Shown one piece after another: positions 8,509 through 21,248 of a stretch of 40,868 nucleotides of DNA. The notes beneath the pieces were generated by a model. That model was not told the DNA's origin. It made no database searches and worked only from the letters and a program-made list of their open reading frames with translations. How positions within the stretch are numbered: the first letter of the stretch is position 1; every line of letters starts with the position of its first letter. The DNA is from a virus. The stretch lies in IMG/VR virus record IMGVR_UViG_3300038682_000215, positions 1 to 40,868 of that record. The stretch is one strand, 5' to 3'. A program made the position numbers and the translations under genes.

Positions 8509-8691
8509 CTAATCAATGCTGATGTATTTTTGCTTCCATTCCGGCTTGATTGGAATGTAATAATCACAACAGGATTCGCCGTTGTTGTCGAAATCGTTAT
8601 ACGCTTGATGCTGATCAGCTTCAGCTTGCGCACGATAGCAACTATCGTAGCTGGGGCAATCCCGCTTTCCACACATAGCCAGCATCGTCAT
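8509..8691 (-). CDS. Small Cys-rich hypothetical protein
   Basis: 60 aa. Four cysteines in the order C-x5-C-x5-C...CC (MCGKRDCPSYDSCY, ESCCDYY) suggest metal binding. ATGA overlap with the upstream 68-aa gene. No function assigned. Confidence 0.55.
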   Translation of the reverse strand: MTMLAMCGKRDCPSYDSCYRAQAEADQHQAYNDFDNNGESCCDYYIPIKPEWKQKYISID

Positions 8692-8894
8692 AGCTTCTCC
8701 GCCACCCTCAGTTCGATTTCATGACCGTTGATGATCGCTGCGATTTGCATCTCTTCGCCCTGTCGCTCTTCGAATTCTCTCACCGCCTGAACATCCGCCG
8801 TTGTGATTGTAATAGGCTTTTTATCGCGCTGAGCTGCAAGTATCGCGGCTTTGATGAAGCGTGAATGCTTTTGTACTTTGTGTTGGTCATTCAT
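8688..8894 (-). CDS. Hypothetical early protein
   Basis: 68 aa: basic helical first half (KHSRFIKAAILAAQRDKK), then ITTADVQAVREFEERQ and a short beta-like end. AAAGGG lies close upstream of the ATG. It sits after the RuvC-like resolvase in the same operon. Not recognised. Confidence 0.55.
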   Translation of the reverse strand: MNDQHKVQKHSRFIKAAILAAQRDKKPITITTADVQAVREFEERQGEEMQIAAIINGHEIELRVAEKL

Positions 8895-8939: not shown

Positions 8940-9422
8940 CTATTTGCCAAACCTTGCTATGAGAATGGCGTCTGCTCTCCCTATATCTTTTTTCCTGCCT
9001 AGTGGCGCGTCAGGGTAAAGCCGTTGCGCTAGCGTTCTAGCGTTATCCTTATCTTTGCCAATCAATCCTGCTGCCTTTTTCCACTTTTGCGGAGTCACCA
9101 AACTGCATGGGTAATCCATGCCAGCAATGACCCCTTGAATTATCCCGAAGCCTAAGCCGAAATTGAACATGGACGCAACGCCCTGCCCAGGCATTGCGCC
9201 AACTTTCTCAACTATGAACGAGAACTCGCAACCATGAGGGCCAGCCTTGGGCAAAGATTCCACCGCAGCGCGCTCGATCATCTTCTTCAGTTCATACGGG
9301 TTAACTTGCTGCTTTTTTCCGTTCGCCATTAGCGGCATGTCAAATACACAAAATAGCCGAATCCCGTCATCACTAACAATCGCAACCGCGCCAGTATTCC
9401 CAGGATCTATACCAATAATCAT
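8940..9422 (-). CDS. RuvC-like Holliday junction resolvase
   Basis: 160 aa, the usual RuvC size. The RNase H-type acidic residues are visible: D6 in IIGIDPGNTGA, E72 in SFIVEKVGAMPGQG and D151 in DIGRADAILIARFG. GQGVASMFNFG also matches the family. It should cut four-way junctions formed during recombination or replication of phage DNA, complementing the Rad52-like and NinB proteins on the other strand. ATGA overlap with the YbcO-like gene upstream. Confidence 0.85.
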   Translation of the reverse strand: MIIGIDPGNTGAVAIVSDDGIRLFCVFDMPLMANGKKQQVNPYELKKMIERAAVESLPKAGPHGCEFSFIVEKVGAMPGQGVASMFNFGLGFGIIQGVIAGMDYPCSLVTPQKWKKAAGLIGKDKDNARTLAQRLYPDAPLGRKKDIGRADAILIARFGK

Positions 9423-9930: not shown

Positions 9931-10986
9931 CTATACCAAAGCCTCTGATTGATTGGATAGGTTTATTACTCCTTCGATCTTAAGCTTCTTCGTTTTAGAT
10001 TTTAGTTCTGAGCCGCCAAGTATTGCGTTCCCGCAAGTAACTAGCCCGTTTTCTTCGTCAGTTGAAGGAACAAACACCAAAACGTCAAACCCGGATTCTT
10101 TAAGGTCTTGTTCTGGCTTCTGGTACGGTTGCCAGCTTTCATACCCGCCAACAGTTTTAGTACCGCTCTCTCGGCAAGCATTGTTGTTGTGTATAGGTGT
10201 GATCTTGCACATAAATTTTGCTGGATCGAACAGCCTATTGACCTTTTCAGCGTCAATAATGTAATCAGTTGAGTATGCAAAGTTTAAGCAATATTTCCGG
10301 CTTATTGGGTCAGGCATCTTATCTGCAATTCGCGCCAACTCTTCAAGAGTTAACGAAAGCCCGCCGAACATTTCCGCCCGTTGATCTTCGTCAGTTGAGT
10401 TTATACTAAACTGTAACCCTGCCTGCCCGTTGTATATGTCGTTTTTAATTCTGCACCATTCAAGAATCCTTGACTCAAGGCCGCTGAATTTTCTTGGTAG
10501 AGACGTGGTAAGAACAGGATGAAACACCTCTATGTTCAACCCAGTATCCGTAGCTATTTGGCGCTTATTCTCATAGCACCAAACCGCGAAATCAAAAACA
10601 GCTTTGTTGAATATTGGATCTCCCATTCGTGCAAAGTGCAAATTTAACCGCTCTGTATATTTATTTTCTGGAAAAAGCCCAATAGCTCGATACATTTGAT
10701 TTTTTAAATCATCAAAAGTTACGTTCCCTCTCCATTTGACTTTTGGAACATCGCAAAAAGTGCATTTCATAGGGCACCCATATTGCGTGCTGAGCGTAAC
10801 AACCCACTTCTCGCTAAGCGGCATACAGTTAGTATTTGGAACACCAGCTATTGGGTTTGTGTATCCAAGAAAATCCGCTTTAACGTTGTGCCGCTTGCCG
10901 TAATCACCGATTGATAGCGTCTCAAGATCGCCCTTGCTATATTCATCAACAAACAAATAGCCAGTTGGAACCATGTATTTTTTCAT
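9931..10986 (-). CDS. Radical SAM enzyme of RlmN/Cfr type
   Basis: 351 aa. The [4Fe-4S] motif CPMKCTFC uses C71, C75 and C78, preceded by VVTLSTQYG as in RlmN/Cfr (SSQVG). FARMGDP matches the SAM-binding GMGEP-type loop, and ITPIHNN matches the conserved Pro/Asn segment. C318 in LVTCGNAILGG lines up with the methyl-carrying C355 of RlmN (AACGQL). The position of RlmN C118, seven residues before the cluster, is Thr64. It may methylate an adenine in rRNA/tRNA or another substrate; specificity cannot be read from sequence. It lies in the leftward early operon. Confidence 0.8.
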   Translation of the reverse strand: MKKYMVPTGYLFVDEYSKGDLETLSIGDYGKRHNVKADFLGYTNPIAGVPNTNCMPLSEKWVVTLSTQYGCPMKCTFCDVPKVKWRGNVTFDDLKNQMYRAIGLFPENKYTERLNLHFARMGDPIFNKAVFDFAVWCYENKRQIATDTGLNIEVFHPVLTTSLPRKFSGLESRILEWCRIKNDIYNGQAGLQFSINSTDEDQRAEMFGGLSLTLEELARIADKMPDPISRKYCLNFAYSTDYIIDAEKVNRLFDPAKFMCKITPIHNNNACRESGTKTVGGYESWQPYQKPEQDLKESGFDVLVFVPSTDEENGLVTCGNAILGGSELKSKTKKLKIEGVINLSNQSEALV

Positions 10987-20109: not shown

Positions 20110-20261
20110 GCTACATGGAATCGGCAGTAATAGCAACGAGCGAGGTGATGAGCATGAATCAAGCGTGTGAAGAACATAGTAGAAAGGCAGTGCGGTGGTT
20201 CGTCGCCGTGTTTGTTGCGGGGATGTTGTCGGTCGGGCTGATTGTGTGGTGGTTGGTGTGA
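20106..20261 (+). CDS. 51-aa tail-anchored membrane protein
   Basis: Polar N-terminus (MNQACEEHSRKAVRW) and one C-terminal membrane helix (FVAVFVAGMLSVGLIVWWLV). Coupled to the 27-aa hydrophobic ORF, so the two may act as a pair. A role in lysis inhibition or exclusion is possible, without evidence. Confidence 0.5.
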   Translation: MSYMESAVIATSEVMSMNQACEEHSRKAVRWFVAVFVAGMLSVGLIVWWLV

Positions 20262-20284
20262 ATAGAATCAATGAGGGCAGCAGC

Positions 20285-20695
20285 ATGAGAGCGCCAGACC
20301 TGATACTGCGCAACAATGATGGTGATAAACCGTACCTTTCGCGCTGGTACGTTATCCCGCGCAATCGCTACCTGAACATCTACCTGCACAAATTTGAAAG
20401 CAGCGACGATGACAGAGCATTGCACGATCACCCGTGGTATAGCGTGTCATTCTTGCTGCGTGGCGAATTGCTGGAGCACAGTTTTAAGGGTGCGCGTTTT
20501 ATCCCGTGGCTTATTCCTGTCTTTCGCTCTGCAAAATTCGCGCACAGGTTAGAGCTGATCAATGGCCCAGTGTGGACAGTATTTATAACTGGCCCGCGCG
20601 TCCGCCAGTGGGGGTTTTATTGCCCGAACGGATGGCGGCACTGGACGGTTTTTACAAGCCCGGACGGGCGGAGCGTTGGAAAGGGGTGTGACTAA
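20285..20695 (+). CDS. Cupin-like hypothetical phage protein
   Basis: 136 aa from the ATG at 20285 with GAGGGC upstream. RYLNIYLHKFESSDDDRALH followed by DHPWYSVSFLLRG, AHRLELINGPVWTVFITGP and GWRHWTVF read as a cupin beta-barrel with a His-x-His metal centre. This family is widespread in phages and its substrate is unknown. Confidence 0.7.
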   Translation: MRAPDLILRNNDGDKPYLSRWYVIPRNRYLNIYLHKFESSDDDRALHDHPWYSVSFLLRGELLEHSFKGARFIPWLIPVFRSAKFAHRLELINGPVWTVFITGPRVRQWGFYCPNGWRHWTVFTSPDGRSVGKGCD

Positions 20696-20883
20696 TGCCG
20701 ACGATCCCAGAATCAAACGACCCCCGATACAAAACAATGTACGTGCCAGCGTCTGCGCCGACGGCACACCATCGATACTGTGAGTGCAGTGCGTGTTTAG
20801 CTGATCCTGAGCGGTGGCCGAACCTGCACAGACCTGAGCCGGACTATGACATGAATCCATGGGAGAGCAGTGACGAGGGTTAA
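20695..20883 (+). CDS. Hypothetical small protein
   Basis: 62 aa, TAATG overlap with the cupin-like gene. CECSACLADPERWPN has a C-x-C-x2-C cluster that may bind metal; the C-terminus is acidic. It ends 20 bp before the tRNA. Confidence 0.55.
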   Translation: MPTIPESNDPRYKTMYVPASAPTAHHRYCECSACLADPERWPNLHRPEPDYDMNPWESSDEG

Positions 20884-20903: not shown

Positions 20904-21031
20904 ACAGGGGTAGCTCAAATGGTCAGGGCTGCAAGAATGGCGAAAAGCCGCTGGCAAGCGTGGAAGCCTGCAGCCCGAGCGCCGGGTCTTTAACCCGGAG
21001 GATGCTGGTTCGAGTCCAGCCCCCTGCACCA
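20904..21031 (+). tRNA. tRNA-Lys-like (anticodon TTT) with 51-nt D-arm insertion
   Basis: Acceptor CAGGGG (20905-20910) pairs with CCCCTG (21021-21026), then encoded ACCA. D stem GCTC (20913-20916) pairs with GAGC (20977-20980). Anticodon stem CCGGG/CCCGG (20982-20986/20994-20998), 7-nt loop TCTTTAA giving anticodon TTT. Variable loop AGGAT. T arm GCTGG-TTCGAGT-CCAGC. Between D-loop base A20925 and the D stem's 3' strand is a 51-nt insertion (20926-20976) closed by perfect 8-bp arms GGGCTGCA/TGCAGCCC. Without it the tRNA is 77 nt with CCA. Oddities: C instead of U at position 33, and A-C at the first acceptor pair. It may be a functional tRNA with an enlarged D arm, a tRNA that needs processing, or a decoy. 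Confidence 0.75.
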
Positions 21032-21062
21032 ATGCATTACTGACAAAGGAGCAAGAAGAATA

Positions 21063-21248
21063 ATGAGCAATTTAACGCAAGAGCAAGCAAGAATTTTATG
21101 TGAAGCGTTCGAGATTGATAGCTACATGAACAACCAGGATGAAATTGACCTTATGATAGATAACAATCCTGAGCTTCATGAGGCGCAAAGGGCGCTGTTT
21201 TATGCTGCTAATCCAAACGAACCGGAGAACAGTGATGACCGAGATTAA
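21063..21248 (+). CDS. Hypothetical acidic protein
   Basis: 61 aa after the tRNA, with GGAG upstream. Acidic helical sequence (QARILCEAFEIDSYMNNQDE). Its end carries the ribosome site and start of the next gene. No function known. Confidence 0.6.
   Translation: MSNLTQEQARILCEAFEIDSYMNNQDEIDLMIDNNPELHEAQRALFYAANPNEPENSDDRD

Follow-up and report, generated by a model that had tools for sequence, protein, structure and literature searches.

Phage tRNAs are increasingly viewed as weapons against tRNA-cutting defences, and the known ones are described as ordinary tRNAs with point changes. A phage record of 40,868 bases from IMG/VR, analysed here over its whole length (the window) and carrying terminase, portal, DnaB, Erf-like, NinB and Gam-like genes, encodes a tRNA-Lys-type RNA with a 51-nt hairpin inside its D arm, which raises the question of whether this RNA is a tRNA that decodes lysine codons, an interrupted tRNA gene, or an RNA that resembles tRNA-Lys for another purpose.

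Structure of the RNA in the window

A sequence-only reading of the window had described a tRNA-Lys(TTT) with all arms and an encoded CCA, its D loop interrupted by 51 nt bounded by perfect 8-bp arms. Both statements are confirmed by the sequence and by free folding, which recovers the cloverleaf together with the insert (Table 1), and the insert arm was found to covary between phages. In the window fold, the 8-bp arm leads through a 5' bulge, 3 bp and a purine-rich internal loop to a 4-bp apical stem closed by a GGCA loop, and this fold beats shuffled versions of the insert in 192 of 200 cases (200 of 200 for the related RNA in contig L200, see below). The anticodon loop consists of T32, C33, TTT, A37 and A38.

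Table 1. Features of the D-arm-extended RNA and the adjoining ORFs, in window positions.
Feature	Position	Strand	Basis or remark
D-arm-extended tRNA-Lys-type RNA, 128 nt including encoded CCA	20904..21031	+	sequence, folds, homologues L162, L163, L200 and L354
Acceptor stem, 5' strand ACAGGGG	20904..20910	+	pairs with 21021-21027; 6 pairs, A1.C72 mismatch
D stem, 5' strand GCTC	20913..20916	+	unchanged across 5 members
D loop with G18 G19 (AAATGGTCA), 5' of insert	20917..20925	+	sequence
51-nt insert, between A21 and G22	20926..20976	+	fold, arm covariation with L162, L163 and L200
Insert arm, 5' strand GGGCTGCA	20926..20933	+	fold, covariation; GGGC is the alternative partner of D-stem GCTC
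Insert arm, 3' strand TGCAGCCC	20969..20976	+	fold, covariation
D stem, 3' strand GAGC	20977..20980	+	family comparison
Anticodon arm CCGGG TCTTTAA CCCGG	20982..20998	+	anticodon TTT 20989-20991, C33 at 20988
T arm GCTGG TTCGAGT CCAGC	21004..21020	+	sequence
Acceptor 3' strand CCCCTGC, A73 (21028), encoded CCA (21029-21031)	21021..21031	+	sequence
Small ORF, ending 20 nt upstream of the RNA	20695..20883	+	translation
Small ORF, starting 31 nt downstream of the RNA, AAAGGAG at 21045-21051	21063..21248	+	sequence, translation

Standard tools handle this RNA poorly. ARAGORN makes neither a tRNA nor a tmRNA call in the window, and the cloverleaf is closed, anticodon arm included, as is not expected of a tmRNA. 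The Rfam tRNA model scores no more than 29.5 bits, since the pairing it proposes joins the 3' half to a portion of the insert. The ARAGORN miss suggests that many such phage RNAs lack annotation. A search for promoters and terminators near the RNA returned nothing exceeding chance.

Elsewhere in the window, the gene immediately preceding the RNA (20195-20695) has a match to PHROG 4786, which bears the label cysteine dioxygenase, and to no Pfam family, and the protein encoded at 9931-10986 has a strong match to PHROG 24834 (unknown) together with a sub-threshold radical SAM match.

Distribution among phages

Comparison with related phages had been proposed as a check; the RNA recurs in four other contigs. 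A pattern scan of 2.9 million viral contigs, in which 35-65 nt were allowed between TCA and GAGC, returned three IMG/VR contigs with the same RNA (L162, L163 and L200), and a subsequent one using a different T-arm spelling returned L354, a divergent fourth relative. The RNAs of L162, L163 and L200 are each 128 nt long, share the identical insertion point, A1.C72, A73 and CCA, and are aligned over their full length by the Rfam tRNA model, with 53 nt in the D loop (42.7-46.4 bits). Free folding of L354 gives the same cloverleaf and D-arm hairpin, with U1.C72, anticodon CUU, C33, A73 and CCA. The family as used below thus has five members, the window included, in three divergent lineages; a family model, R1, scores the window RNA at 129.8 bits, the window being one of its five training sequences.

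The carriers are different phages. L162 and L163 are 95.5% identical over 133 nt, the RNA being their only shared sequence, and between L162 and L200, whose contigs carry siphovirus-type tail and head genes with the RNA oriented opposite to the adjoining structural genes, the RNA is 93% identical as against 71-81% for neighbouring genes. The L163 carrier has a phrog_156 portal, a terminase and a P-like helicase loader. The window RNA matches that of L162 at 72% over 135 nt (E 1.4e-10), with no further match between the two contigs. No gene common to all carriers was found, and in L002 and L003, which contain relatives of the upstream gene, the RNA is absent at that site. These comparisons show that the same RNA spreads independently among unrelated phages.

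Scans of viral contigs with the 5' half, the 3' half and the insert core for further close members led back to the same contigs and otherwise to ordinary tRNAs or chance matches, and plasmid and phage BLAST searches returned no insert-bearing homologue. The initial view that such an insertion is not a standard bacterial feature is upheld by a pattern scan of 84,980 bacterial and archaeal species genomes, which contained no family member; its output consisted mostly of truncated or duplicated tRNAs, with a few archaeal D-arm insertions.

In L162 (about 9250-9422) and L200 (about 8598-8731), a further element lies just upstream of the tRNA-like RNA; its ends (CCGGTAGCCGYGCCGGKGGCGACAGAGCGG ... 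CCATGCAATAGCACCATAAGGCCGCCGGAYGGAGTAACCGGC) are conserved, its middle is variable, and it has no Rfam match.

Covariation and alternative pairing

Across the five members, 98% of cells in the four tRNA stems are paired, with double changes at five pairs, and sliding the stem partners as a control abolishes this covariation signal. In the 8-bp arm of the insert, compared among the four close members, 31 of 32 cells are paired and four of the eight pairs show double changes. These members also have in common the architecture of the insert, namely a 5' bulge, 2-3 bp, a purine-rich internal loop and an apical hairpin with a four-base loop. Beyond the arm, insert sequence is conserved only among L162, L163 and L200, where the interior is 97-100% identical as against 95-97% for the tRNA body; the interiors of the window, the L162 group and L354 differ, and the inserts of the window and L162, at 41% identity, show no recognisable conservation of the interior. 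A conserved, structured form of the RNA is well supported by these data. An alternative pairing of GGGC (20926-20929) with the D stem, also pointed out at the outset, does exist: each of the four close members can form a local D stem between GCTC and GGGC or GGGU, which is 0.5-5.9 kcal/mol weaker.

Lysine identity and elongator features

Recognition of tRNA-Lys by LysRS follows the pattern Y34 U35 U36 A37 A38 together with A73, the anticodon U-turn is made by U33, and the 1-72 pair aids binding to EF-Tu. All five members have a YUU anticodon, A37 A38, A73 and an encoded CCA, and all five have a 1.72 mismatch and a base other than U at position 33. The mismatch is A.C in the window, L162, L163 and L200 and U.C in L354, and position 33 is C in the window and L354 and A in the L162 group. 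The remark that C33 and the A-C first pair are unusual holds for the pair, since 7 of 606 CCA-bearing non-Met tRNAs from the collected phage loci have a mismatch there, but less so for the loop, since C33 alone is not very rare (57 of the 1271 ARAGORN tRNAs in these loci, with A33 in 10). The anticodon arm of L354 (CGGACCCTTAATCCG) equals a bacterial tRNA-Lys arm (CGGACTTTTAATCCG) save at positions 33 and 34. Run against the tRNAs of four bacterial genomes, the family model has tRNA-Lys(TTT) as its top match, with Thr, Arg and Met tRNAs scoring nearly as high. A canonical elongator tRNA-Lys would have a 1-72 pair, U33 in a 7-nt loop and a short D loop, in place of which the window RNA has the mismatch, C33 and the 51-nt insert. 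As the non-U33 loop and the 1.72 mismatch occur with YUU, A73 and CCA in every member, lysine identity appears to have been kept and two features that aid elongation appear to have been lost.

An initiator-tRNA origin was also considered, prompted by the 1.72 mismatch and the GGG/CCC run in the anticodon stem of the window RNA, both as in bacterial tRNA-fMet, and by the phage tRNA-Met genes among its best database matches. The family differs from tRNA-fMet in having UUU or CUU instead of CAU, and C11-G24. Pairs 29-31/39-41 are GGG/CCC in the window, GGG/CCU in L162, AGG/CCU in L163 and L200, and GGA/UCC in L354; with GGA/TCC in L354, the G-C run does not seem to be common to the family. The idea was dropped on account of these L354 pairs and its tRNA-Lys-like anticodon arm, and a comparison of isotypes gave no clear winner.

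D-arm insertions in other phage contigs

A wider set of viral loci was assembled by shared 5' and 3' tRNA signatures, in a search that required intact acceptor and T stems. With the first T-arm pattern, a standard U33 loop was found in 4 of 25 RNAs with a D insert and in 49 of 58 ordinary tRNAs (p 4e-9), and with the second in 0 of 17 and 17 of 22, respectively (p 5e-7). Pooled over the same loci, the counts are 4/42 versus 66/80, and 4/30 clusters versus 66/80 when relatives are collapsed, the collapsed counts having been entered by hand. In several D-insert RNAs a GNRA-type tetraloop closes the anticodon arm (GTGA in L140, GCGA in L320, GAAA in L334), and other four-base loops recur in subfamilies (TCAC in L124 and its relatives, GGCA in L079 and L119). 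In phage contigs at large, D-arm insertions are associated with non-decoding anticodon arms. The two features could also be coupled through decay of unused tRNAs, but simple decay is disfavoured because the acceptor and T stems are intact, as the search itself required, and the loops are closed.

Because their acceptor stems differ from that of the window RNA, these RNAs are to be regarded as its analogues and not as proven relatives. It is conceivable, though we hold it with considerable doubt, that a wide, undescribed class of non-decoding tRNA mimics exists in phages, with a functional D-arm hairpin and a closed or altered anticodon arm; its members would serve as mobile RNA-based counter-defence agents or regulators, and the window RNA would be the lysine-type one.

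Some of these RNAs recur in their own right. One type, with variable D inserts, is found in L124, L136, L148, L335, L336, L345, L355 and L357, and has the anticodon arm CCTGCC TCAC GGCAGG in most copies. The D-insert RNAs of L079, L119 and L326 have ATATATTGAAA.CAGCTAGTCGG.AGACGAA in common in their inserts and a short anticodon loop, and that of L119 adjoins two normal tRNAs. In phage BLAST searches with the D-insert RNAs of L119 and L140, no named phage was found to carry them.

A possible link to tRNA-Lys nucleases

Among the anti-phage nucleases that attack tRNA-Lys, PrrC and RloC act in the anticodon loop, and the PARIS nuclease AriB acts in the anticodon stem while also contacting the D loop; PrrC cuts next to U33. 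A study of phage T5 (PMC12409363), however, places the PrrC cut elsewhere in the anticodon. That study, with PMC10264068, names tRNA-Lys(UUU) as a target of both PrrC and AriB, and the predicted AriB complex touches U16-U17 of the D loop. The tRNA-Lys of T5 is described there as evading AriB through changes in the anticodon stem, and the D-loop change U16C as also impairing cleavage (PMC12409363).

On the strength of these published points, namely that tRNA-Lys(UUU) is targeted, that AriB contacts the D loop and that a phage tRNA-Lys variant counters PARIS, a role in counter-defence is proposed. Our tentative preference is for the window RNA being a phage-borne, probably non-elongating mimic of tRNA-Lys. 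It would retain the lysine marks (U35, U36, A73, CCA and the cloverleaf) and be recognised by LysRS, it would forgo the 1-72 pair and U33 and so would not elongate, and the structured hairpin of about 50 nt would stay in the mature RNA as a permanent part of the D arm, where it would stand near the docking place of the second AriB subunit. Its use would be as bait, or as a cleavage-proof substitute for host tRNA-Lys. The three functions first suggested for the insert were an expanded D arm, a processed insertion and a decoy for tRNA-Lys nucleases, and the first and last of these seem to fit best with the comparisons above. The C33 found in some phage tRNAs may leave decoding possible for the window RNA, and the sequence does not explain why a decoy should need the hairpin.

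The T5 tRNA-Lys(UUU) (PMC12409363) is likewise phage-encoded, has a lysine anticodon and carries anticodon-arm and D-loop changes relative to a bacterial tRNA-Lys, but is presented there as an ordinary tRNA with point changes, in contrast to the D-arm hairpin, 1.72 mismatch and missing U33 described here. Phage tRNAs predicted to resist nucleases have an altered anticodon loop, as does the window RNA (van den Berg 2023, PMC10264068); neither the word D-loop nor the word insertion is used in that paper, and D-arm insertions in phage tRNAs are described nowhere in the open-access papers searched. If the preferred reading is true, a hairpin-bearing tRNA-Lys mimic that moves alone among unrelated phages would be a new tool in this conflict.

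Alternative explanations

A working elongator that replaces nuclease-destroyed host tRNA-Lys, its hairpin and anticodon-loop changes merely preventing cleavage, would account for the lysine identity retained in three lineages, has a precedent in T5 tRNA-Lys(UUU) acting against PARIS (PMC12409363), and could accommodate C33, which other phage tRNAs also have. We consider it unlikely, as a 1.72 mismatch rare in elongators is present in 5/5 members despite different letters (A.C and U.C), every lineage is without U33, and D-insert analogues elsewhere have tetraloop-closed anticodon arms that are unable to decode. Those closed arms would suit a different proposal, in which the tRNA fold does no more than scaffold the RNA and mark it for processing, a stable RNA is released by RNase P together with 3' processing, and the D-arm hairpin is the active part that binds a protein or RNA. 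The conservation of the insert interior, with its purine-rich internal loop, within the L162 group and the exact fit of the window RNA between two same-strand ORFs point the same way. The conserved Lys anticodon and A73 would then be needless, however, the interior is unlike between the window and L162, and the RNA runs against the adjoining structural genes in L162 and L200, so that this proposal seems rather unlikely.

Removal of the 51 nt after transcription as a D-arm intron, giving a tRNA-Lys of ordinary size, has been weakened and is distinctly improbable. The boundary repeats GGGC and GAGC would permit clean excision, many phage tRNAs have short anticodon-stem insertions whose removal gives a perfect arm, and archaeal tRNA genes with D-arm insertions exist in the genome scan (L253, L258 and L265), where, as in the window, several tens of nucleotides lie in the D arm of a tRNA with a Lys anticodon. 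These noncanonical archaeal genes keep U33 in a normal CTTTTAA loop, whereas the window RNA has TCTTTAA; its excised form would still lack U33 and leave the 1-72 pair open. In place of a bulge-helix-bulge, the predicted fold has a continuous 8-bp arm beside the D stem, conservation of the insert interior in the L162 group equals or exceeds that of the tRNA body, contrary to what an intron would lead one to expect, and the insert-bearing RNA as a whole is better conserved than the sequence around it. A group I or other known intron was set aside, in keeping with the first description of the insert, as the Rfam search gave no such match and 51 nt compares with roughly 200 nt or more for group I. 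That the locus is a decaying tRNA gene or an assembly chimera, as the missing ARAGORN call and an isolated tRNA with odd features might suggest, is contradicted by independent contigs, compensatory changes and conservation exceeding that of flanking genes, and we give it almost no weight.

Other interrupted tRNAs

Interruptions at another site were observed in at least about 20 phage tRNA genes, which have insertions of 43-56 nt in the 5' strand of the anticodon stem at about position 28/29 (for example L081, L067, L009, L034, L063, L069, L006, L015, L035 and L117). Excising them in silico gives a perfect stem and a U33 loop. Two types recur, one with a hairpin plus ACAGCAA and the other with TAAAA...GGTTACTT, and the whole looks like an undescribed family of mini-introns, far below group I introns in size. 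Archaeal tRNA genes with D-arm insertions and normal anticodon loops are found in L253, L258, L265 and L245; three of these belong to Thermoplasmatota and have the Lys TTT anticodon. Finally, at about 1380-1860 of L208 (Gordonia phage Phendrix, MN096369), unannotated and heavily interrupted tRNA-like sequences lie inside a tRNA cluster.
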